Shown: positions 4,321 through 21,863 of the stretch, piece by piece
Position numbering within the stretch: the first letter of the stretch is position 1
How the letters are laid out: each line of letters starts with the position of its first letter
DNA from: a virus
Virus record (IMG/VR): IMGVR_UViG_3300046169_000003
Location: 1 to 22,350 of that record
Length of the DNA: 22,350 nt
Reading direction: 5' to 3' (one strand)
Notes under the pieces: generated by a model
What the model saw: the letters and a program-made list of their open reading frames with translations, nothing else
Database searches by the model: none
What the model was told of the DNA's origin: nothing
Position numbers and translations under genes: made by a program

Positions 4321-4594
4321 ATACTACTACGACTATACAAGGAATAGAGATGAAGCTAAAGAAGTTATAGAGGACTTAAAGAGTAATCCTATACCAAACT
4401 ACTATGTAGGTAATACTTATGGTTATGAAGCTCGTAAAGTATGTGAGGACTGGGATTTAAGCTATAACTTAGGAACAGCAGTAACCTATCTACTTAGAAG
4501 TAGTTACAAGCACGATAGTCCATATGATTGCATACAGAAGGCTATAAATCATTTACAATTTGAATTAGATAAACTAAACAACAGAGAACAATGA
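4307..4594 (+). CDS. DUF3310-like protein
   Basis: The 95-residue product has an N-terminal YYYDYTRNRDEAKEVIEDLK and then VCEDWDLSYNLGTAVTYLLR followed by SSYKHDSPYDCIQKAINHLQ. This matches the DUF3310 pattern of a compact helical domain with 'f--GNaiKYl-Ra--K----eDL-KA--yl'. DUF3310 proteins are common in tailed phages and have been linked to nucleotide metabolism by annotation only. The HY motif often present at the start of this family is not clear here. It overlaps the HNH gene by 14 bases and the next by 4 (ATGA). Confidence 0.65.
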   Translation: MAKSKYYYDYTRNRDEAKEVIEDLKSNPIPNYYVGNTYGYEARKVCEDWDLSYNLGTAVTYLLRSSYKHDSPYDCIQKAINHLQFELDKLNNREQ

Positions 4595-4818
4595 CAAGCG
4601 AACTAATAGACTTATTCGAGGAAGCAAAGAGAATAATAGATAAGCAAGAGGAATTAATTAAGATGCAACAATCTTTAATTAAGACAATGCAACAAGGACT
4701 GCAAGGAGTAGAACTAAATGAGTTACTACTAAAGAAACAACTAGCAGACTTACAAGAGGAACTAGAAACTATTACAAAAGATTATATAGATGTAATGGGG
4801 GGGGGCGAAAAAGTATAA
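4591..4818 (+). CDS. Short coiled-coil protein
   Basis: The 75-residue product is almost wholly helical with heptad-like spacing (LIDLFEEAKRIIDKQEELIK, MQQSLIKTMQQGL, LLLKKQLADLQEELETITKD). This suggests an oligomeric coiled coil. A run of nine G residues (4797-4805) encodes Gly-Gly-Gly three codons before a short end. A one-base error in that run would change the C terminus. Function unknown. Confidence 0.6.
   Translation: MTSELIDLFEEAKRIIDKQEELIKMQQSLIKTMQQGLQGVELNELLLKKQLADLQEELETITKDYIDVMGGGEKV
4797..4805 (+). repeat. Nine-base poly-G run
   Basis: An uninterrupted G9 tract occurs near the 3' end of the coiled-coil gene in otherwise AT-rich DNA. It would be prone to slippage and to sequencing miscounts, so the reading frame after it is less certain. 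Confidence 0.9.
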
Positions 4819-4960
4819 CCAATATGTCAGTACATCGCACGGGGGAGCTTTCATTTTTCTTACGCAAAATTAAATCTAAATCGTGTGGGTATAGATATAC
4901 CAAACTAAAACCAGTTTAAGTTCAGTATGTTAGTTGTAATATGGCCAAGCTAAAAATAAA
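4819..4960. other. Non-coding region before the small terminase, candidate packaging site
   Basis: No convincing gene lies in these 142 bases. They hold a GC-rich island (GCACGGGGGAGC, about 4837-4850). They also hold an inverted repeat GGTATA-GA-TATACC (4888-4901) and a second short one, AAACT/AGTTT (4902-4917). The position immediately upstream of the terminase operon, in a genome where genes otherwise overlap, is where cos or pac sites of HK97-like phages lie. Cleavage site and end type cannot be determined from sequence alone. Confidence 0.4.
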
Positions 4961-5434
4961 ATGAGAGGGAGAAAAAAAATACCAACAAAAGTAAAGGAGC
5001 TAAAAGGTACTATTGAAAAGTCTCGACTAGTGGGAAACGAGATGGAGACTTCGGCAGTTGTCTCAATGCCTCTAGCTCCCTCCTTTCTCAATAAACAAGG
5101 CGCAGACGAATGGGACTTAGTCACTAACGAACTAGCCAATATAAAGATGTTACATCTAACTGACTTATCAATCTTAGCAGCGTACTGTAACGAGATAGGT
5201 ATTTACAGAGAGATAGCTCAAGAGTTACAAGGTAACTTTACAGAACAGACCGTTGACAAAGATGGTAGGTTGAGGTCTAGTAAGATTGCACCAAAGTACA
5301 AGGTTATGCAAAACGCTTTACAAAACGCAATGAAAATTGCTACGCAATTTGGTTTCACTCCGAGCAGTAGAGCTTCCCTTAGTATGCCAGAGCAAGATGA
5401 GGAAAGGACTGACGATTTTAATTTTTTTGACTAA
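4961..5434 (+). CDS. terS: Terminase small subunit, P27 family
   Basis: The 157-residue protein begins RGRKKIPTKVKELKGTIEKS, the basic start typical of P27-type small terminases (Terminase_4). The helices DEWDLVTNELANIKMLHLTD and LSILAAYCNEIGIYREIAQE and the conserved KIAPKYKVMQNALQNAMKIA / FGFTPSSRASL region follow. It recognises phage DNA and hands it to the large subunit for packaging into the prohead. Length is typical. Position upstream of the large subunit fits, although a methyltransferase gene separates the two. Its stop forms a TAATG junction with that gene. Confidence 0.9.
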   Translation: MRGRKKIPTKVKELKGTIEKSRLVGNEMETSAVVSMPLAPSFLNKQGADEWDLVTNELANIKMLHLTDLSILAAYCNEIGIYREIAQELQGNFTEQTVDKDGRLRSSKIAPKYKVMQNALQNAMKIATQFGFTPSSRASLSMPEQDEERTDDFNFFD

Positions 5435-6060
5435 TGATAAACATTTACAATCAAGACTGCTTAGAAGCAATGAAAGAGATGTCAGATAATCAATTTGATT
5501 TGGCAATAGTAGACCCTCCTTATGGAATTGATGTAACAAAGATGACCTTAGGAAATGGCAAGAAAAAAATAAACAGAGGAACATCAGATTGGGATAGTTC
5601 AATACCGACAAAAGATTATTGGGATAATTTATTTAGAGTTAGTAAAAATCAAATAGTATGGGGTGCTAATTATATGACAACATATTTACCTCCATCAATG
5701 GGTTGGATATATTGGGATAAGGGAACTGGAGCAAATGATTTTAGTGATGGAGAACTAGCTTTTAGTTCATTTAATAGAGCCTTAAGAAGTTACAAAGTTT
5801 CTTGGGTTGGTGCTAATGCTAACAATGGAACTCCTAGAATACATCCAACAGAAAAACCGATTAGACTTTATGAGTGGCTATTAATGAACTATGCAAAAGA
5901 GGGAGATAAGATATTAGACACACACTTAGGAAGTGGAAGTATTGCTCTTGCTTGTCATAATCTAGGCTATGACTTAGAGGGGTACGAATTAGACAAAGAC
6001 TATTACGATAATGCTTTAAAAAGAATTAAAGAACACCAATCTCAACTAAGGCTGATATGA
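5434..6060 (+). CDS. DNA adenine/cytosine-N4 methyltransferase (beta-class order)
   Basis: The 208-residue enzyme has catalytic motif IV DPPYGID at residues 27-33, HPTEKP at 137-142 and the SAM-binding motif LDTHLGSGS at 161-169, followed by LEGYELDKDYYDNALKRI. The motif order IV then I marks the beta class of N6-adenine / N4-cytosine methyltransferases; DPPY favours N6-adenine but does not prove it. It transfers methyl from S-adenosylmethionine to DNA, and no cognate restriction gene is seen. It sits between the two terminase genes with 1-base and 4-base overlaps. That suggests methylation timed with late expression or packaging. The recognition sequence is unknown. Confidence 0.9.
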   Translation: MINIYNQDCLEAMKEMSDNQFDLAIVDPPYGIDVTKMTLGNGKKKINRGTSDWDSSIPTKDYWDNLFRVSKNQIVWGANYMTTYLPPSMGWIYWDKGTGANDFSDGELAFSSFNRALRSYKVSWVGANANNGTPRIHPTEKPIRLYEWLLMNYAKEGDKILDTHLGSGSIALACHNLGYDLEGYELDKDYYDNALKRIKEHQSQLRLI

Positions 6061-11264: not shown

Positions 11265-11894
11265 ATGGAATACTATAACTACAACTTTAACACATTAAGA
11301 GGTTCTGATTATGTGCCTTATGGTAAGTTAGTTCTAAAGACTGCTCCAACGTCTACTGTTATATCATTATCAGAGGCTAAGGCATTTTTAAGAATAGACT
11401 CAGACTATGACGATGACAATACTTATATTACGTCTTTGATTAATGTTGCAACAAGTGTAGTTGAGGAGTTTACTAGACGAAGATTAATTACTCAGTCTTA
11501 TTATTTATATTATGACGAGTTTCCTCCATACATTGACTTACAGATAGGAATAATACAACCATTTTTTGCTATAAAATATTATGATACCGACAACGTACAA
11601 CAAACTTTAGCAACTTCAGAATACGATGTTGATGATAAAATAAGACCAGGAAGAATATATGAATCTAAAGACGGTAGTTTCCCAGATACTTACGAAAGAC
11701 CAAACGCTGTTGAAGTAGAGTTTGTAGTTGGTACTACAGCAAGTGAAGTTCCAGCTCCAATAGTACAAGCTGTTTATATTATCGTAGGTCGTTACTACGA
11801 AAATCGCCAAGACGTTGTTATGGGTACACAAGTAAATGAACTTCCATTGATGGTAGAACACTTATTAACTCCTTACCGATTGCTTGAACTATGA
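11265..11894 (+). CDS. Head-tail connector, phiE125 gp8 / gp6-like family
   Basis: The 209-residue protein has VISLSEAKAFLRIDSDYDDD followed by ITSLINVATSVVEEFTRRRL. This is the opening of the connector family that adds a ring under the portal (Phage_connect / gp8 type). A beta-rich middle follows (IDLQIGIIQPFFAIKYYDTD), then VEFVVGTTASEVPAPIVQAV and IIVGRYYENRQ near the end, all family-typical. The gene follows the terminator and precedes the head-closure gene, the standard order. It overlaps that gene by 4 bases (ATGATAA-like junction). Confidence 0.85.
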   Translation: MEYYNYNFNTLRGSDYVPYGKLVLKTAPTSTVISLSEAKAFLRIDSDYDDDNTYITSLINVATSVVEEFTRRRLITQSYYLYYDEFPPYIDLQIGIIQPFFAIKYYDTDNVQQTLATSEYDVDDKIRPGRIYESKDGSFPDTYERPNAVEVEFVVGTTASEVPAPIVQAVYIIVGRYYENRQDVVMGTQVNELPLMVEHLLTPYRLLEL

Positions 11895-13297
11895 TAATAG
11901 GCAAACTAGATAGAAAGTTAAAACTATATACACAGACTTACTCTACTAACGCTTATGGCGAGAGAGTAGTATCTGACAATAGTTATGTTACCATCTACGC
12001 AGACTTTGACTTCAAAGGTGGTAATACTAACTTCGATGCTGATGCCTTAATCAATGACGAGCGTATAGAGTGCTTAATAAGATACAGAACAAACATAGGA
12101 GTAAGTCCACAATACTTTATCTCTAATGGCTCTACTAATTATTCTATCAAGAGTATAAAGGAAGTAGGTCGTAAAGATGCTATGGTGCTTTTATTAGAGA
12201 AGAATGACGTAGTAGATTTATCACAAACAGCTCCTAATCAATTTGTCTTCACTATTGACACAGAGAATACATCTAGTGGCTCTAGCTTGAATACACAGTT
12301 TATGATGCCTTTAGTTAGTGGAGGTAGTTATAATGCTACAGTAAACTGGGGAGATGGCTCTAGCGATACAATAACAAGTTACAATCAAGCAGAGGTTACA
12401 CACACTTATAGTAGTGCTGGTCAATACGAAGTTAGTATAGAGGGAACATTACAAGGATGGCAATTTAATAACGCTGGAGATAGGCTTAAAATGCTTGACG
12501 TTAAACAATGGGGAGTATTAGACTTATCTACTTCTGCTGCTTTTTATGGTTGTTTTAATTTAGATGCTAGTGCTACAGATGCTCCTACTGTTTCTAGCAC
12601 ATCATTTTATAGAATGTTTAGAGATTGTACTAACTTCAATGGAGCAATTGGAAACTGGAATACATCTACTATAAATAACTTACAAGAAACTTTCTATAAT
12701 GCAAGTACATTTAATAAGTCAATAAATTCTTGGGATGTAAGTAATTGTACTATTTTTTCTAGAACGTTTAGAAACGCCAAAACTTTTGACCAAGATTTGA
12801 ACTCTTGGAATACTTCTAATGCTGAAAATATGTTTGAAACATTTAGAGATTGTACTCAATTCAATGGAGATATATATAGTTGGGACACTACTAATGTAGA
12901 AAATATGAATAGTATGCTTTACAACTGCGACCTATTCGACCAATCTCTAGCAGCGTGGAATATTTCTAATGTAACAAACTTTACTAATTTTATGCAGAAC
13001 GCTAGTGGTCTAAGCACATCTAACTACGATGCTACATTAATATCATGGGCTGCACAATCTGTATCACAAAATGAAAGTATAAACTTCGGTGGCTCACAAT
13101 TTACAGAGTCTGCTTATGCTTCAAGATTCAGCTTAATAGAGGATGATGGTTGGACTATTGTTGATGGTGGTATATTTGACCCAACACCAGTCGATTACAT
13201 AAGCATACTAACAACTAGAGTAGTAGCTGCTGGAGGTACTATAGAGAACACTACAGACAGCCAAGCATTCTTACAAACATTAAATGACATTGACTAA
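11891..13297 (+). CDS. Head-closure protein fused to PKD and BspA-like (DUF285) domains
   Basis: Residues 1-105 (IGKLDRKLKLYTQTYSTNAY, DALINDERIECLIRYR, YSIKSIKEVGRKDAMVLLLE) match phage head-tail adaptor/head-closure proteins (about 110 residues, Phage_H_T_join). A linker leads to a PKD-like domain: FVFTIDT at 118, WGDGSS at 153-158, HTYSSAGQYEVSIEG at 171-185. Five or so 25-residue DUF285/BspA repeats follow (about 220-370), with units such as MFRDCTNFNGAIGNW and TFRDCTQFNGDIYSW. The last 35 residues contain TTRVVAAGGTIENTTD, a short motif I associate with Bacteroidota phage virion proteins. The head-closure part caps the portal-connector; the added domains should project from the neck and could bind a surface or glycan. 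Gene neighbours and frame support a real fusion, but loss of a stop codon by sequencing error cannot be excluded. Confidence 0.82.
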   Translation: MIIGKLDRKLKLYTQTYSTNAYGERVVSDNSYVTIYADFDFKGGNTNFDADALINDERIECLIRYRTNIGVSPQYFISNGSTNYSIKSIKEVGRKDAMVLLLEKNDVVDLSQTAPNQFVFTIDTENTSSGSSLNTQFMMPLVSGGSYNATVNWGDGSSDTITSYNQAEVTHTYSSAGQYEVSIEGTLQGWQFNNAGDRLKMLDVKQWGVLDLSTSAAFYGCFNLDASATDAPTVSSTSFYRMFRDCTNFNGAIGNWNTSTINNLQETFYNASTFNKSINSWDVSNCTIFSRTFRNAKTFDQDLNSWNTSNAENMFETFRDCTQFNGDIYSWDTTNVENMNSMLYNCDLFDQSLAAWNISNVTNFTNFMQNASGLSTSNYDATLISWAAQSVSQNESINFGGSQFTESAYASRFSLIEDDGWTIVDGGIFDPTPVDYISILTTRVVAAGGTIENTTDSQAFLQTLNDID

Positions 13298-14865
13298 TGG
13301 CAGACGGACTATTAAATAAAGCAAGTATTATCTTAACTCCTACTGGTTACAAGGCTGGTACGCTTTACAACGTAGCTCCAGTAGTAGAGCCTTATGAGGA
13401 CTTTGATTTTGCTAGAGCTAGTGTTGCTAGTCGAGTTAATTCTAGTGGCTTAGTCGAGATGGTAGGACGTACTCTAGGGAATGAGTTAGTTACAGATGGA
13501 GATTTTACTTTAACTGGCACACAACCACCAAGCACAACTGGAACTTATTGGACAACTGCTAATAGTTGGACTATATCAAATAACAAAGCTAGTTATGATG
13601 GTACAACTAATGGTTCTATATTAGAACAAGCAATTACTTTAGATGATGGAAGCACTTATGAGGTTAAAATTACTATTTCAGATAATAGTGGTAGATTTAG
13701 ACTATCAATAGATAGTGGAACTGCTGACTTTAATACTTATACATCTGGAGATGGTACTTATACTTTCTATGTAATAGCTACAGCAGATGAGTTACAAATA
13801 AGAGGCTCATTATCTGATAGTGCTGCCACTTTTTCAGTTTCAAATATTTCACTTAAAAAAATAATAGACACCAACAACATTCCAAGAATAAACTATGATA
13901 GTAATGGAGATAATGGTCATATATTGTTAGAGCCTACTTCTACTAATCTATTACCTTATAGTGAGGATTTTGAGGCTGGCTCTTGGACTAATGAAAGTAT
14001 TGGTACTACTCCAACTTTAGATGGTGGCTATACTGCACCTGATGGTAGCAATAGTGCATATAAAATATCTAATGCTAATCAAGATAGTTTTTGGTATTAT
14101 CCAAGCGTTGCTGATTCTGATTATGCTAGAACGATATGGGCAAGAACTGTAAGTGGAACGGGAACTGCTCAATTAACATCACATAACTCTAATACTAACA
14201 ATACTTTCAACTTAACAGAAACTTGGCAGAGATTTGAGGTAAATTCTACAACATCATCAATAGGAGAGCAAAGTTTTTATGCAGTAGATTTTAGAGGTAG
14301 TGGAACTCTTACAGAGTTATTAATATGGGGTGCACAAGTAGAAGCCTTATCATACGCTACATCATACATACCAACACTAACTGGAAGCACAGTTACAAGA
14401 GCAACAGAGACTGCAACTGGTGCTGGTAGTGCTACATTAATAAACTCAACAGAGGGTGTGTTATATGCAGAGATAGCTGCATTAGTTAATGGTGGAGTTG
14501 ACAGAATAATTTCTTTATCAGACGAAACAAATAACAATTTAATTTATATAAGAATTGACAACACCGCCAACAGAATAAATTCATTTGCAAGAGGTGGAGG
14601 TGGTACTTATAATATATTAACAGTAAATGGAGTAAACCAAACAAACACTAATAAAATTGCTTTAGTTTGGGATGCTTCAAATGTTAGGGTTTGGATTAAT
14701 GGTAGTCAAAGCCTTACACAATCAATTAATAATACACCTACTGGAATAAAAACTTTAAGTTTTACAAGTCCAACTGGTGGCTCCCCTTTCTACGGTAAAT
14801 GCAAAGCTTTAGCAGTATTTAATGAGGCTTTAAGTGATAGCGAACTAACACAACTAACAACGTAA
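13297..14865 (+). CDS. LamG-domain virion protein (fibre/decoration-like)
   Basis: The 522-residue protein begins ADGLLNKASIILTPTGYKAG and RVNSSGLVEMVGRTLGNELV, an opening common in phage fibre-like proteins. Two beta-sandwich regions follow: NELVTDGDFTLTG... at about 62-190, carbohydrate-binding-like, and NLLPYSEDFEAGSWTNES... at about 215-355. A C-terminal LamG/concanavalin-like domain covers about 370-520 (TEGVLYAEIAAL, IALVWDASNVRVWINGSQ, GKCKALAVFNEALSDSELTQ). LamG domains bind glycans or proteins. Lying between head-closure and tail-completion genes rather than after the tape measure, it is probably attached to the neck or head. It starts at a TAATG junction with the fused head-closure gene. 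Confidence 0.75.
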   Translation: MADGLLNKASIILTPTGYKAGTLYNVAPVVEPYEDFDFARASVASRVNSSGLVEMVGRTLGNELVTDGDFTLTGTQPPSTTGTYWTTANSWTISNNKASYDGTTNGSILEQAITLDDGSTYEVKITISDNSGRFRLSIDSGTADFNTYTSGDGTYTFYVIATADELQIRGSLSDSAATFSVSNISLKKIIDTNNIPRINYDSNGDNGHILLEPTSTNLLPYSEDFEAGSWTNESIGTTPTLDGGYTAPDGSNSAYKISNANQDSFWYYPSVADSDYARTIWARTVSGTGTAQLTSHNSNTNNTFNLTETWQRFEVNSTTSSIGEQSFYAVDFRGSGTLTELLIWGAQVEALSYATSYIPTLTGSTVTRATETATGAGSATLINSTEGVLYAEIAALVNGGVDRIISLSDETNNNLIYIRIDNTANRINSFARGGGGTYNILTVNGVNQTNTNKIALVWDASNVRVWINGSQSLTQSINNTPTGIKTLSFTSPTGGSPFYGKCKALAVFNEALSDSELTQLTT

Positions 14866-15074
14866 TGAGTTTAAGATTAACAGAAATATGCTACCCAGAG
14901 GTAAAGAGTTACTACATCGTATGGAACGATAGTGATGCGATAGTATCTTATGGAGTGCTAGAAACCTATCAATGCTTAGAGACTAAGTGGGACAATGTAG
15001 ACTTATACACTAAAGAAATAGATTGGATAAATATATTAATAGATAACGGTATTAACCCTTTTCCAGAGCAATGA
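14865..15074 (+). CDS. Small protein following the fibre-like gene, unknown function
   Basis: The 69-residue product (CYPEVKSYYIVWNDSDAIVS, YGVLETYQCLETK, IDWINILIDNGINPFPEQ) resembles small proteins encoded after fibre genes in marine phages, with the pattern 'YG-l---Q-l-t---n---------W---L---gINPF'. I cannot name the family or its function. TAATG joins it to the LamG gene and ATGA to the next gene, so it is part of the inserted fibre cassette. Confidence 0.6.
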   Translation: MSLRLTEICYPEVKSYYIVWNDSDAIVSYGVLETYQCLETKWDNVDLYTKEIDWINILIDNGINPFPEQ

Positions 15075-15499
15075 TAGTATCAGCGCAAATAGATGAGAGA
15101 GAGCTAAATTCTTTAATTAAGGACTTAGAGAAACTTAATATGTCTGATAGTAAAAACAAGACACTACTAAGGCAAGGAATGAGAAAAGCTGCTAAGCCTA
15201 TACTGCAAGAGCTTAAATCTATTGTACCAGTTGAATCTAAACAGCTTAAAAAGTCTTTAGCTATAATCAACGGAAAGAATGTAAAAGGCAAACCTCCAAC
15301 GGTTTATATAGGACCAAGAGTTAAAAAATCATTTGCTAGTAAAGAGAAGTCTGGTTTTTATTTCTATTTCTTAGAGTATGGATTTAGAGGTATTCCTGGA
15401 CTAAGAATGTTAGATAAGACTGCTGCTAGTAAAGGCAATACAGCTATCAATAGTGTAATATCTGAAATAAAAAAACTCATTGACAAAAGAATGAAGTAA
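15071..15499 (+). CDS. HK97 gp10-like tail-completion protein
   Basis: The 142-residue protein has the family layout: an N-terminal helix (RELNSLIKDLEKLNMSDSKN), KTLLRQGMRKAAKPILQELK, IVPVESKQLKKSLAIINGKN and the C-terminal FYFYFLEYGFRGIPGLRMLD. This 'A---PI---lk---P--tG-Lk-si' plus 'y--f-E-Gt' arrangement is typical of HK97 gp10 proteins, which join tail to head. Its position before a DUF3168-like gene is the standard order. It starts at ATGA and ends at TAATG. Confidence 0.85.
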   Translation: MIVSAQIDERELNSLIKDLEKLNMSDSKNKTLLRQGMRKAAKPILQELKSIVPVESKQLKKSLAIINGKNVKGKPPTVYIGPRVKKSFASKEKSGFYFYFLEYGFRGIPGLRMLDKTAASKGNTAINSVISEIKKLIDKRMK

Positions 15500-16112: not shown

Positions 16113-16539
16113 ATGGCAATTTTTAACGGAACGGATTTAATCCTAAAAGTTTCTCCTAGTAGTGGAGGAGCGGAAGCGAAATTGATGCACTCACAGAATG
16201 TTTCACTTTCAATGAATGTAGATACAATAGACATCTCAACTAAAGACTCTAGCTGGTTTCAGAGAGTTATTAGGTGGTCAAAAGTCTTTCAGTCTTTCGG
16301 CTGATGGTCTTATGGACTTCTCAGCAACTGCTGGAGATACTGATGTAGCTGAATTATTTGACCAGATGATGGATAGAACAGCAGTAGACTTTACTTTTGC
16401 TCTAGCTACTCCAGCTGGTTATACAATAACTGGAGATGGTTTTATTACTTCTCTTGAGATTTCTGGTGGTACAGAAGATGCTCCTACTTACTCTTGTTCA
16501 ATAGAGGGAACTGGCGCAATCACTAAGACTGCTGTATAA
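16113..16539 (+). CDS. Major tail protein, frameshifted
   Basis: The first frame (16113-16304) gives MAIFNGTDLILKVSPSSGGA, then VSLSMNVDTIDISTKDSSWF. The second frame (open to 16539) gives SFSLSADGLMDFSATAGDTD, LFDQMMDRTAVDFTFA, YTITGDGFITSLEISGGTED and YSCSIEGTGAI. Removing one A at about 16272 joins them as VIGGQKSFSLSADGL, the usual central motif of TP901-1/HK97-type tail tube proteins. The restored protein is about 141 residues, normal for this family. It polymerises into the tail tube. As written, the tube protein would be truncated and the phage tailless, so the shift is probably a sequence error. A/T-rich sequence precedes the ATG. Confidence 0.85.
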
Positions 16540-16958: not shown

Positions 16959-17284
16959 CTTGGGATAGTTTAGAAGCTATAGGTTATGGCTTCGGATTAC
17001 TTCCTCAAGACTTTTGGAGTTTGACTTTCCACGAGTTTCTGTGTATGCAGAAAGGCGTAAACGATAGAGTAGAGAAAGAACAGCAATGGGAGTGGGAACG
17101 AGTGCGATGGTTGGCTTGTGTTAATTTACAGCCACATACTAAAAAAGGACAAAACCTAACTCCAGACAAATTAATTAAATTTGATTGGGAGAAGAAACAA
17201 GTTAAGACCGACATCGAAAAACAACGACAAAGAGCAGAATATATTAAAAAGAAATACGAATTGCTAAATAAAGACAATGGCTGA
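16910..17284 (+). CDS. Tail assembly chaperone frameshift extension (T part of gpGT-like)
   Basis: This frame is -1 relative to the short chaperone and opens after a TGA at 16907-16909. It has no good start of its own; TTG at 17021 is inside the conserved region. It encodes EEKEVTWDSLEAIGYGFGLL followed by PQDFWSLTFHEFLCMQKG, matching TAC domains with the pattern 'LG--P-eFW-lT--Ef'. A charged tail follows (KQVKTDIEKQRQRAEYIKKK). The overlap with the short form is 16910-16958, and the run GAAAAAG at 16946-16952 is the best slip site in it. A fused product is expected in a minority of translations. It ends 8 bases into the tape measure gene. Confidence 0.72.
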   Translation, partial: DRGKRESSERGEEKEVTWDSLEAIGYGFGLLPQDFWSLTFHEFLCMQKGVNDRVEKEQQWEWERVRWLACVNLQPHTKKGQNLTPDKLIKFDWEKKQVKTDIEKQRQRAEYIKKKYELLNKDNG

Positions 17285-18925
17285 GAAAACATTAAGTATT
17301 AAATTAAGTCTAAACGACAAGCAGTTTCAGAGTAAACTCAAGAAGTCTATGAGGTCTATGAAAAAGTTTGGCAATAATATGAAGTCTCTAGGGCGTACTA
17401 TTTCGACTGGACTTACTTTGCCTATTATAGCTTTTGGAGCAGCTAGTGTTAAGGCTTTTGACGAACAAATAAAAGCAGAGACCAAACTTAGAACAGCTCT
17501 AGGCGATAGTGCAGAGGCTTTTGATGTATTAAAAAAACAAGCACAAGACCTACAGAAAATTACAATATTTGGAGATGAGGCTACTTTAGAAGCACAATCT
17601 TTTTTAGCACAGCTAGGACTTAATGCTGATGCAATACTAAGACTTACTCCACTTATTCAAGACTTTGCTACTGCTCAAGGTATTCAATTAACAGATGCTG
17701 CTAAATTAGTTGCTAAGTCAGTTGGTTCAAGTACTAACGCCTTGAGTCGTTACGGACTTCAAATAGAAGGAACTGTTGGAGAGCAAGATAGATTAGAGAG
17801 TGCTGTTAATGCTCTTACAAAGGCTTTTGGTGGTCAATCAGAAGCAATAGCTAAAGAAGGTCTAGGACCACTACAACAGCTTAAAAATGAGCTTGGAGAT
17901 GTTTCTGAAAAGTTTGGAGAGATTGTATTAGAATTTATAGACCCACTTAACAAAAGGGCTTAGAAAAAATATCGGATGCTCTTAGTGGTCTAACAAAAGA
18001 ACAAAAAGAGAACATAGTTCAATATGGTGCTATTCTTGCTGCTGTTGGTCCAGTCTTAATTGTGTTTGGAAGTTTAATATCTTCACTTAGTGTTTTAATA
18101 CCTTTAGCAATAAAATTTGTAGCTGCAATAAATCCAATCACTTTAGCAATAACTGCTGCTGGTGCTGCTGTTTTATATCTTGTAAATAGGTTTAGAGACT
18201 TACAAAAAGAGTATGAGGATTATAATAAAGTAGTAGGAGACTTTGAGCCAATGCAAGAGTCTTTTATTCCAACTACTATAACACCAAAAAAACCTAAAGA
18301 AAGAACACCAGACCCTAATTTTGAGTTTAAATTTGTTGAGCCTATAAAAGCATTAAATGTAGAGCTTAAATTACTTAAAACACTAACGCCAGTAATTGAG
18401 GAATTTGAGGAGAGTTTGTCTGGAATGGATATAGTAGCCAATGAAATAACACAAAGTTTCCAAAGTTTTGGCAATATATTCCAATCAGTATTTGCTCAAG
18501 CTTTACAAAGTCAAGAAGGATTTTTTAAATCATTTGTAGAAGGTACTAAAAGAGCAACTAAGGCTCTACTAGCGCAATTAGCTGCAACTGCTGCATTAAA
18601 TGCCATTATAGGTGGTTTGGGAATAGGCAAAGCCTTAGGATTTTCTAACATAGGTGGAGTAGGTGGCTTAGGAGATATGCTCGGTAGTGTTTTAGTTCCA
18701 TCATTTGCAACTGGTGGAATTGTAAGTGGACCTACTTTAGGACTTATGGGAGAGTACGCTGGAGCTAGAACTAATCCAGAAGTCATCGCTCCATTAAATA
18801 AATTAAAATCTATGATAGGAACAAACGGAGGCTCTACAGAGGTATTTGGTGTAATAAGTGGAGCTGATATATTACTAAGTTCAGACAGAGCAAGAAACAA
18901 TAGAAATAGAACAAGAGGTTACTAA
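17277..18925 (+). CDS. Tape measure protein, frameshifted
   Basis: The first frame (17277-17963) begins MAEKTLSIKLSLNDKQFQSK and KSMRSMKKFGNNMKSLGRTI, the usual tape-measure opening, then FGAASVKAFDEQIKAETKLR and FLAQLGLNADAILRLTPLIQ. The continuation from 17957 gives GLEKISDALSGLTKEQKENI, VQYGAILAAVGPVLIVFGSL and then a hydrophobic stretch AINPITLAITAAGAAVLYLV. The break at AACAAAAGGGCTTA (17949-17962) fits one lost base or two added homopolymer bases. The restored protein has about 548-549 residues. At the usual 0.15 nm per residue that predicts a tail of roughly 80 nm. The C-terminal part is Gly/Ala-rich (IGGLGIGKALGFSNIGGVGG) and ends near FATGGIVSGPTLGLMGEYAG. It sets tail length and helps DNA entry. 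Confidence 0.88.
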
Positions 18926-21075
18926 TGGCAATAGATACTAGATTAGTAGGAGAATTTCAAAGCGATAGAGGTACTTATTATAAAGTCTCTATAATTGACA
19001 CACAAAGCTCTACAGCTACTCAATATGATGTTGAGGTGGCTGGTAATGGTTTTGACTTAACATACCAAACAGATACAGATGATAGATTTACTGGTCTAAT
19101 TCCATCAGAGGTTAAGTTTACTATGTTTGTCAATGACCCTTTTAATAGTGCTAAACAAAGTATTTTAGCCTCTATAAGAACAAGCGAATATAAAAGGTGG
19201 CAACTAAAAATAGAATCATCCACTAACGGAAGCACCTTTTATTTGTTTTGGGCTGGTAATTTATTAAACGAAATAAATCCAGAGGCTGACGAATCTTTGC
19301 CAAGACAATTTACACTTACTGCTATCTGTGGTCTTGCTGCTTTAGAAAACATTCCATTCAATGAGGATGTAAATTATCTTTTTACATCAGCATATTCTTG
19401 TTATCGTTATGTATTTAACGCTATAAACACAGACATTAACACAGATAACAATTGGGCAACAGATGACCGATTTATCAGAACTATGGTAGATTGGACTAAT
19501 TCACAAATACCTAGAAACAATGCAACAGACCCACTTAACAACACAAGATTTATAGCTGCTACATTCGCTCCAGTTGATAACAATGGAGTAAGACAGCCAG
19601 AGACAGCATTTAAGCTGTTAAATCAAATCTGTAAAGCATTTGGAGCTAGATTATATCTAAGTGAAGGGATTTGGTATTTTATTCAAGTGAATACCTATGA
19701 AGAAATGGATAGTTCTGACCAATACTATAGAGACTATAAGAAAGGAAACAACGGAAGCACACATACTCCAGACTTCTATGGTACTATAGATTTAAACACT
19801 TCAGAAGATGGTACTAACATAACTAGATTGGCTGGTAATAAGTTTGACTTTTTAGGTATATTAAAACAAGCTAAAGTCTCTTATGAAATGTTTGGTAGTT
19901 ACGACTTACTACCATCAACAATAACTAACGCTAGTGGCACAAGTAACACAGTAAACAACTCTATAGTAGCTTGGAATGGTTGGCGTTCAACTGGTGCTGG
20001 TTTTAATACTGACTCTGGTATTTACGGAGTAAACGATTTAACTACTTCTACAGACTATGCTTCTTTTTATATGGGAGAGTTACAAGTATTAGATGGGCAG
20101 ACAATTAAAATAAATAGAACATTTAATAGAGCTATAAATGATACATACTCTGGTTGGGGATTTACTGACAATCAATCTATTTTATTTTATCACAGACTAA
20201 AACTAGACGATGGTGCTGGAGATGTTCGCTATGCTCGTTCTACTTATACTAATGGTGGTCTAGCTCAATGGACTTCTGATGATGTTTGGGGAAATGCTCC
20301 AGACTATAATGTGCCTTATACTATATTTGGTGCTTCTGAATTGTTTTACGCCACGCCAGATGTAAGTGGCGATTTAGGTTCTTTTGTTTTAAACTTTCAG
20401 ACTGCTGAAGTGCCAATAGCTGGAGACTTATATTTTGAGTGTTATGCAAAAGTATATTATGACTATGGAACAGACGACCCAGATACTGGCACAGAAATAA
20501 CATCTGCAACAGACCAAGCTAAATTATATATATATTCAGCTCCAGAAAACTCAGCAGAACAAATATTTCAAATTTATATCAACGGAGAAAGTACATCTAA
20601 GCAAACCTTCATAACATTACAAAACATAGCAAACGGATTAACTTATGAAGTTGGAGACTTATTAATAGGCTCTGGACCAACTGCAACGAATGTTGGTAGA
20701 CTACAATGTTATAACAATACGTCTTGGGATGATGGCACTAATATAACTTGGGAAGCATACGGAGGTGGTAGTGGTAAAGCTATCTCTAAGCTATTACTTA
20801 ATGAGATAATGGCTGGCCAAAACGAAGGAGCTAGAGTCTTTGATGGTTCTTTAAAAATATTGACTAATAATGTAAGTACTAATGGCTACAAATTTCACAA
20901 TGGAATTACTATAGACAGCTCTTTATTTGTGCCTTATCAGACAACATTTATAGCTAATGAAGATACTTGGCAAGGAGAATGGTATGAAATAAATACAAAT
21001 ACTACTACTTTGACTGATGATACTGAAGCTGAAACATTAAACACTAACAACACAATAAACACTAATAGCTGGTAA
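18925..21075 (+). CDS. Distal tail / baseplate structural protein
   Basis: The 716-residue protein is directly downstream of the tape measure, where Dit/Tal-like baseplate proteins are encoded. Its N terminus (GEFQSDRGTYYKVSIIDTQS, YDVEVAGNGFDLTYQTD, GLIPSEVKFTMFVNDPFNSA) and the following LFWAGNLLNEINPEADESLP and FTLTAICGLAALENI match the distal tail proteins of Bacteroidota phages, which begin with a beta-sandwich hub. Later regions are beta-rich with aromatic and Gly/Asn patches, likely receptor- or carbohydrate-facing. It probably caps the tail tip and nucleates the fibre. The name is by position and partial pattern. Confidence 0.7.
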   Translation: MAIDTRLVGEFQSDRGTYYKVSIIDTQSSTATQYDVEVAGNGFDLTYQTDTDDRFTGLIPSEVKFTMFVNDPFNSAKQSILASIRTSEYKRWQLKIESSTNGSTFYLFWAGNLLNEINPEADESLPRQFTLTAICGLAALENIPFNEDVNYLFTSAYSCYRYVFNAINTDINTDNNWATDDRFIRTMVDWTNSQIPRNNATDPLNNTRFIAATFAPVDNNGVRQPETAFKLLNQICKAFGARLYLSEGIWYFIQVNTYEEMDSSDQYYRDYKKGNNGSTHTPDFYGTIDLNTSEDGTNITRLAGNKFDFLGILKQAKVSYEMFGSYDLLPSTITNASGTSNTVNNSIVAWNGWRSTGAGFNTDSGIYGVNDLTTSTDYASFYMGELQVLDGQTIKINRTFNRAINDTYSGWGFTDNQSILFYHRLKLDDGAGDVRYARSTYTNGGLAQWTSDDVWGNAPDYNVPYTIFGASELFYATPDVSGDLGSFVLNFQTAEVPIAGDLYFECYAKVYYDYGTDDPDTGTEITSATDQAKLYIYSAPENSAEQIFQIYINGESTSKQTFITLQNIANGLTYEVGDLLIGSGPTATNVGRLQCYNNTSWDDGTNITWEAYGGGSGKAISKLLLNEIMAGQNEGARVFDGSLKILTNNVSTNGYKFHNGITIDSSLFVPYQTTFIANEDTWQGEWYEINTNTTTLTDDTEAETLNTNNTINTNSW

Positions 21076-21863
21076 TGAGTTTACAAGGATACTTAAATAA
21101 TCAAGTCTTAGCAACAGTTTCTGTTACATCTACAACAGCTACTACTACTTTTTTACAGATATATAGTCCAACTATGTTAATGGCTAAAAGTGGCGAAACA
21201 GTAAAGATTATACACAAAGGAACTGGTAGAGAATACAACGTGACTTTAACATCTGACTTAACTACCACAACCACTAGACTAGATTTTAGTTCTACTACAT
21301 TTGATACAATAATCCCAGAGGGAAGCATTATAATACAATCTAACCTTGATAAATGGGACACTATATTTAGAGATTATACTATAGTAACTCATAAATTATA
21401 TGAGTCTGGTAATACTCACGGTAATACATCTTTGATTAATCCACGATACCCTAGCATAATGGATATAAATGCTGGTAGTACTTGGTCTGATGGAGACACC
21501 TTAGCTAACTCTTATCTCAATAATAGCATTTTTAGAGCTCCACACGATGGATGTAAAATAGAGAGAGTTACTTGGGACATTAACTCAGATGCTACAACTG
21601 GTCACAATGCTGTATTTAGTTTATGGAAAAAACCTATAACAGAGTTAGGTAATACAGCAACAGATATTACTTTAGTAGATACAACTACTTACACAGCACA
21701 AAACGACATAAATTATGTTTTAAATAGAGACACACAAAACGCTACAACATTAAACTCTAACGATTGCTTAATACCATCTTTTAAAAAGTCTGGAAGCGCA
21801 TCTAGTAGCGACAAATTTTACGCAACATTAACGCTATTGATTAGCACAGACCCAAGACAATGA
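21075..21863 (+). CDS. Fibre-like virion protein of unknown type
   Basis: The 262-residue protein is beta-rich and rich in Thr/Ser (VSVTSTTATTTFLQIYSPTM, YNVTLTSDLTTTTTRLDFSS, SIMDINAGSTWSDGDTLANS). Its C-terminal part contains IFRAPHDGCKIERVTWDINS and a beta-sandwich ending FYATLTLLISTDPRQ. Lying between the distal tail protein and the lysis genes, it is probably a tail fibre or receptor-binding component. No named domain is recognised. TAATG links it to the gene upstream and ATGA to the holin-like gene. Confidence 0.65.
   Translation: MSLQGYLNNQVLATVSVTSTTATTTFLQIYSPTMLMAKSGETVKIIHKGTGREYNVTLTSDLTTTTTRLDFSSTTFDTIIPEGSIIIQSNLDKWDTIFRDYTIVTHKLYESGNTHGNTSLINPRYPSIMDINAGSTWSDGDTLANSYLNNSIFRAPHDGCKIERVTWDINSDATTGHNAVFSLWKKPITELGNTATDITLVDTTTYTAQNDINYVLNRDTQNATTLNSNDCLIPSFKKSGSASSSDKFYATLTLLISTDPRQ

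Follow-up and report, generated by a model that had tools for sequence, protein, structure and literature searches.

The DNA analyzed here, referred to as the window, is a stretch of 22,350 nucleotides from a viral genome (IMG/VR record IMGVR_UViG_3300046169_000003, positions 1 to 22,350). On its plus strand, an open reading frame (ORF) starts with ATG at position 11891 and runs without an internal stop to the stop codon that ends at 13297, encoding 468 amino acids. From the N- to the C-terminus, the product is composed of a stopper domain of the SPP1 gp16 type, a PKD domain, five BspA/DUF285 repeats, a cap and a two-helix tail. The gene lies within a head-tail block, with an HK97-type capsid gene and a gp6-like adaptor gene upstream. 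The downstream genes encode, in order, a LamG protein, a 69-aa ORF, an HK97-gp10-like protein and a tail terminator, and the stopper gene thus sits between the adaptor and tail-completion (HK97-gp10-like) genes. The features of this region are as follows.

11265..11894, plus strand: gp6-like head-tail adaptor, the ring where the stopper docks (Phage_connect_1, 1.6e-11; phrog_442/phrog_40)
11891..12220, plus strand: stopper/head-closure domain, residues 1-110 (Phage_HCP, Foldseek, single copy, pN/pS 0.10)
12221..12241, plus strand: linker after the stopper domain (homology to the relative L083 ends at 12220 by blastn; low pLDDT at residues 110-113)
12242..12460, plus strand: PKD domain, residues ~118-190 (Pfam PKD; model strands 117-190)
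12581..12970, plus strand: five 25-residue BspA/DUF285 repeats, residues ~231-360 (Pfam DUF285; entropy and lag-25 periodicity)
12971..13171, plus strand: cap at the C-terminal end of the repeats, residues 361-427 (model helices 376-388 and 406-417; conserved alignment block)
13172..13294, plus strand: 40-residue two-helix tail (helices 433-446 and 455-466, pLDDT ~65; co-occurrence with the LamG gene)
13297..14865, plus strand: LamG/concanavalin-type lectin protein, TAATG-coupled to the fusion (Pfam Laminin_G_3, 7.6e-8)
14865..15074, plus strand: small beta-rich ORF, 69 aa (accompanies PKD-BspA in 54/54 loci, against 0/19 without the module)
15071..15499, plus strand: HK97-gp10-like tail completion protein (Pfam, 2.8e-8; junction in L083)

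All three Pfam matches in the fusion exceeded their gathering cut-offs: Phage_HCP (PF05521) at residues 1-97 (27.6 bits against a cut-off of 25, covering profile positions 1-97 of 106), PKD at residues 133-185 (25.3 bits against 23.5) and DUF285 at residues 278-375 (137.4 bits against 25; 2.5e-40). A homologue, L085, matched Phage_HCP at 42.1 bits. Among the PHROG profiles, phrog_25 (head closure Hc1) matched residues 1-147 and phrog_10356 residues 3-109. The AlphaFold2 model of the full protein, built from 32 homologues, had a mean pLDDT of 82, with values above 90 in the repeats and weaker ones (50-77) in the stopper domain. It showed a stopper domain rich in beta strands, a sandwich fold for PKD, regularly stacked repeats, a helical cap and, with modest confidence, the two-helix tail at the C-terminus. 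When the model was searched against the PDB with Foldseek, the high-probability matches were the stoppers or neck proteins of T1, SPP1 (gp16), Pam3, FCWL1 and GTA, each over about 100-110 columns, with probabilities of 0.99-1.0 and TM scores (target) of 0.52-0.59. The E-values were weak (0.026-0.4, none at or below 0.001), as is expected because a domain of about 105 residues was queried within the whole long chain. The repeats have a period of 25 residues, with tryptophan anchors at 256, 281, 306 and 331 and a degenerate first copy at 231. Residues 1 to about 110 are therefore a stopper (head-closure) domain by both sequence and fold, and residues ~231-360 are a BspA/DUF285 LRR domain by profile match and period. 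The stopper, the PKD domain and about five repeats had all been listed in the first-pass annotation; three further members of the same cassette had been overlooked, namely the 40-residue tail, the small ORF and the LamG gene coupled to the fusion.

It could be argued that two genes were fused into this frame by a mistake in assembly or sequencing, since the window has probable frame breaks elsewhere (the major tail protein at ~16.25-16.31 kb and the tape measure at ~17.95 kb). The probability of such an error is practically negligible. The intact frame, with identical architecture, was found in about 60 other IMG/VR contigs, with homologues reaching down to 66% identity among those with the tail and to ~51-56% in a second branch, and these independent contigs already refute an error. 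The junction contains neither a start codon nor a stop. The sign of a false fusion that had been named, a stop plus a new start separating the stopper from the adhesin, was sought in relatives and not found: the relatives either keep the fusion or lack PKD-BspA. The earlier reading of stopper, PKD and BspA in one open frame is thus confirmed by its exact coordinates, by Pfam, PHROG and the model, and by the related contigs. A separate internal start for the adhesin was considered and rejected, as the first later methionine (138/139) lies inside the PKD domain. A programmed frameshift at the junction was likewise rejected, as no X XXY YYZ heptamer was seen by eye around codons 100-118.

The protein is long compared with the family members sampled. 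In a base-rate sample of 291 genomes of the class of Peptoniphilus and 298 genomes of the phylum of a Gemmatimonadales genome, the open frames of 67 PF05521 matches did not exceed 211 aa, compared with 468 aa in the window. The stopper of the cultured Cellulophaga phage phi39:1 has 116 aa and a weak Phage_HCP match, with a gp10-like gene directly downstream of it; a database record lists it as detected by MS in virions. Each of the seven genomes checked (the window and six relatives) carries one stopper-like gene. Because of this single copy, the fusion must perform head closure.

We compared 73 distinct loci, each spanning the stopper to the gp10-like gene, and found three architectures without exception. 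The full state, to which the window belongs, was present in 38 loci and consists of the stopper-PKD-BspA-tail protein, the LamG gene and the small ORF. In the half state (16 loci), the stopper-PKD-BspA protein is accompanied by the small ORF, and both the tail and the LamG gene are absent. The remaining 19 loci are bare: they encode a stopper of ~112 aa and lack PKD-BspA, the tail, the LamG gene and the small ORF, the HK97-gp10-like gene lying directly 3' of the stopper. The tail of the fusion was present only where the LamG gene follows (38/38 vs 0/16). The absence of exceptions in 73 loci indicates that the tail and the LamG gene are strictly linked, as are the small ORF and PKD-BspA. The small ORF yielded a model with a pLDDT of 90, and searches gave no database match and no convincing fold relative in the PDB. 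Members of its small family, with ~33% identity, also follow two PKD-BspA genes in an unrelated phage contig (L081:7671-7898 and L081:9737-9907). The family is a candidate assembly partner of BspA adhesins.

The borders of the variable segment were defined by the bare relative L083, whose stopper is 99% identical to that of the window. Its DNA showed 92% similarity to the window up to position 12220 (codon 110), and the homology resumed 2.84 kb later at 15065, in the last codons of the small ORF (blastn). This clean presence/absence junction shows the adhesin to be a cassette that is optional. Terminases are 88-99% identical across the compared loci, all three states included, and the states therefore change within one close group; relatives with a 97%-identical terminase lack the PKD-BspA part entirely. 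A tree of the adaptor and stopper domain required at least four changes among the three states; L083, a bare locus, and L052, a half one, both fell within the branch of the full device.

Two cassette-less contigs of 24-26.5 kb contain no BspA elsewhere. Their ends fall at the same gene border as those of a third contig, and they appear to be close to complete. In these phages the cassette is thus dispensable, and infection does not depend on it in every host. An adhesin relocated to another site was not found in the cassette-less contigs examined. The tail-tip region (18925-21863) also has homologues in cassette-less relatives, which points to the collar as an accessory structure. As a separate observation, the contigs G004, G005 and G013 (24-26.5 kb) start about 20 bases ahead of the reversed homologue of window 4591-4818 (window 4818-4961) and end beside the terminase small subunit gene. 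These are possibly the physical ends of a genome of ~26 kb.

The repeats differ from the rest of the fusion in their variability. Among 39 nucleotide-distinct full-device genes, the mean entropy was 0.13 bits in the stopper, 0.09 in PKD and 0.81 in the repeats. Variation within a repeat peaks at +9 and +10 from the tryptophan (means of ~2.6 and ~2.5 bits), followed by +7, +14 and +13. These offsets lie between conserved core positions, where W, F, C, N and G are nearly invariant. The autocorrelation of entropy at lag 25 was 0.71, a value reached by none of 20,000 shuffles. The variable sites, occupied mainly by Y, S, Q, R, D and N, formed 35 distinct signatures in 37 proteins, and pairs with identical stopper domains (n=111) had a median identity of 21% at these sites. 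The pN/pS ratio was ~0.95 at the variable repeat sites, compared with 0.10 in the stopper and 0.09 in PKD. The pattern of variation suggests that the variable positions are exposed at the surface and that the repeat region bears the signature of a variable binding surface. It also suggests positive selection at these sites, within the limit that saturation sets on a pN/pS of ~1. The same value, being not clearly above 1 in a test blurred by saturation, would also be expected if a generic repeat domain were simply drifting or under relaxed constraint, with the fusion as a nearly neutral hitchhiker. However, the frame is unbroken in all complete copies, the core residues W, F, C, N and G are hardly changed, and the linkage among the tail, the lectin gene and the small ORF is strict; we regard drift as very improbable.

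Mutagenesis by a DGR was considered and rejected as the source of this variation. All three codon positions vary (entropy 1.41, 1.44 and 1.17 at positions 1, 2 and 3), as opposed to an adenine-directed pattern, in which the changes would be mostly confined to positions 1 and 2. The variable sites carry whole-codon replacements such as TAT/AGT/CAA/AGA, and no reverse transcriptase (RVT_1) was found in the window and six relatives. The repeats are loosely correlated with each other (r 0.15-0.53) and include four clear mosaic pairs, which hints at a mosaic make-up of the repeats. The LamG protein also has a conserved base and a variable end, its N-terminal 56 aa having a median identity of 88%, compared with 46% for its C-terminal 130 aa. 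Its length among relatives ranges from 327 to 800 aa, and the TAATG overlap between the fusion and the LamG gene is present in the window and in the six relatives inspected. We tentatively propose, as one possible reading, that a diversified array of LRRs for recognition is borne by the stopper ring, in which a conserved 25-residue scaffold leaves the exposed residues nearly free to change. Such an array might be renewed by mutation and recombination of single repeats, not by a DGR, and be combined with an exchangeable lectin. Variable lymphocyte receptors would be an analogue in principle.

Taken as a whole, the putative collar borne by the stopper is probably an accessory, exchangeable adsorption device of the neck, the fusion to the stopper being what would place the adhesin arm there. 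The arrangement that we infer is as follows. Six copies of the fusion would assemble on the adaptor ring and close the portal as in SPP1, whose stopper has six subunits (PMC9701221). From each subunit, a PKD spacer followed by a BspA-type LRR domain would extend outward from the neck. In the full form, the C-terminal tail would probably dock or co-assemble with the LamG lectin protein, whose gene is translationally coupled to that of the fusion; the 69-aa protein would probably aid assembly. A single chain joining the tail and the lectin N-terminus was not found in a Rosetta-stone search of deposited phages. Before the tail tip comes into play, the collar may then hold the virion reversibly on host surface polysaccharide, protein or particle.

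BspA and PKD domains occur also in proteins without a proven adhesive role. The C-terminal part could instead form a structural collar, reinforcing the neck or the joint of head and tail and binding no ligand. Its fusion to a connector protein would fit this function, as would the peripheral Ig-like domain of the R4C adaptor, which has been described as a capsid-contacting attachment domain (PMC10276861). However, conserved partners would favour a conserved surface, whereas nothing in the protein varies more than the repeat positions, and close relatives (97%-identical terminase) do entirely without it. A purely structural role is decidedly unlikely. It is also possible that the arm binds mucus, gel or particulate polysaccharide, not a bacterial receptor, and thereby keeps the phage near its hosts. 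Such retention has been proposed for T4 Hoc. Adherence to mucus or epithelium is mediated by T4 Hoc and by PKD/Ig-like domains of gut phages (PMC13370021), and a dispensable cassette that pairs an LRR with a lectin-type partner is in keeping with such a role. The residue-by-residue diversification of the LRR among near-identical phages, however, fits strain-specific ligands better, and we consider binding to a matrix unlikely.

An adsorption device on the neck is not without precedent. The first-pass annotation had described the neck as a site not usually considered for attachment, a statement that is not supported in view of the collar-attached neck passage structure (NPS) of lactococcal P335 phages, which has variable carbohydrate-binding modules and is regarded as an ancillary adsorption device (PMC9692632), and of the Ig-like domain on the adaptor of roseophage R4C (PMC10276861). 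The NPS of P335/936 phages (TP901-1, Tuc2009, phiLC3) has a variable binding module between conserved parts, is attached to the neck and is read as a device for reversible host capture; in our phages, the fusion to the stopper would put the adhesin at the neck as well. The variable LRR positions and the variable C-terminus of the LamG protein, both on conserved bases, may correspond to the variable carbohydrate-binding module of the NPS. However, the NPS is a separate trimeric protein of ~700 aa with a BppU-like N-terminus, encoded beside the receptor-binding protein, whereas the adhesin of the window is covalently joined to the stopper, is built from PKD and a BspA LRR and has a separate LamG protein. 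No match to a BppU-like N-terminus was found in the 468-aa fusion (Pfam, PHROG). The fusion is therefore not an NPS, although its mode of action may be similar.

Other known proteins share single parts of this design. Members of the Phage_HCP/SPP1 gp16/lambda gpFII family (PF05521, PHROG 25) share residues 1-110 and the gene position between the adaptor and the HK97-gp10-like gene. In R4C and in Douge, an accessory Ig-like domain is likewise fused to a core virion protein, and the Ig-like domains of Douge, located on its capsid and tail tube, bind to the surface of the host (PMC13033339); the core protein is a different one, and a hypervariable LRR or a coupled lectin gene has not been reported. 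The BspA/DUF285 'surface' proteins of Goslar, PAU, S-SKS1 and other large phages belong to the same repeat family, and several combine PKD with BspA, but they are mostly encoded by separate genes, in contrast to the stopper-fused repeats of the window. No deposited phage record matched both the stopper and the repeats or reached at least 80% coverage, the matches listed starting at residue 93 or later, and the stopper part had no match among deposited phages. The 852-position profile phrog_10356 ('virion structural protein') matches the stopper domain with its positions 5-109; another of its matches is the bare stopper of G005, which has 113 aa. Together with a 193-aa BFVD entry named SPP1 head-tail adaptor, this profile hints that other extended stoppers exist. 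Nothing on a stopper-BspA fusion was found in the literature searched. Neck adhesins and fused accessory domains are thus already known, while the fusion to the stopper, the diversified LRR positions and the three-state cassette appear to be new.

Tail-tip proteins are the usual explanation for adsorption. If our interpretation is correct, an essential DNA-gate protein also serves as the foundation of an adhesin collar that is optional and varies fast. Otherwise similar phages with no device, half of it or all of it form a natural comparison set for the function of neck adhesins. The fusion shows where a stopper tolerates a C-terminal addition of ~40 kDa in nature, and the per-residue map of variable positions is a directly testable prediction of the binding face.

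With the search patterns used, no relative of the stopper fusion was found in a genome collection, either in a prophage or in a host. The terminase kin in this collection are ~45% identical and mostly from Firmicutes. SD-like motifs are rare in the window, being present at 4 of 30 starts, and the GC content is 35%; these two features are compatible with a Bacteroidota host. The phages belong to an uncultured group that probably infects Bacteroidota.

Several minor observations were made elsewhere in the window and its relatives. In the adaptor gene, the window reads IGIIQPFFAIKYYD at ~11540-11590 where relatives read VGDVASVTHIKYYD, a difference that looks like a pair of compensating indels. 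The major tail protein (16113-16539) is in two frames of 63 and 75 aa, broken at ~16.25-16.31 kb, where relatives have one frame of ~143 aa; a sequencing error or a real frameshift is the probable cause. The tape measure (17277-18925) is broken near 17950 into two frames, and relatives have a single frame of ~610-640 aa. The DNA methyltransferase by the terminase (5434-6060) is 29-66% identical or absent in relatives whose neighbouring genes are >90% identical, and judging from these identities its locus is a second swap site. In the branch with 66% identity, the neck locus of L065 (3046-6546) encodes a longer lectin-like protein of ~775 aa and an additional protein of ~390 aa of similar design.
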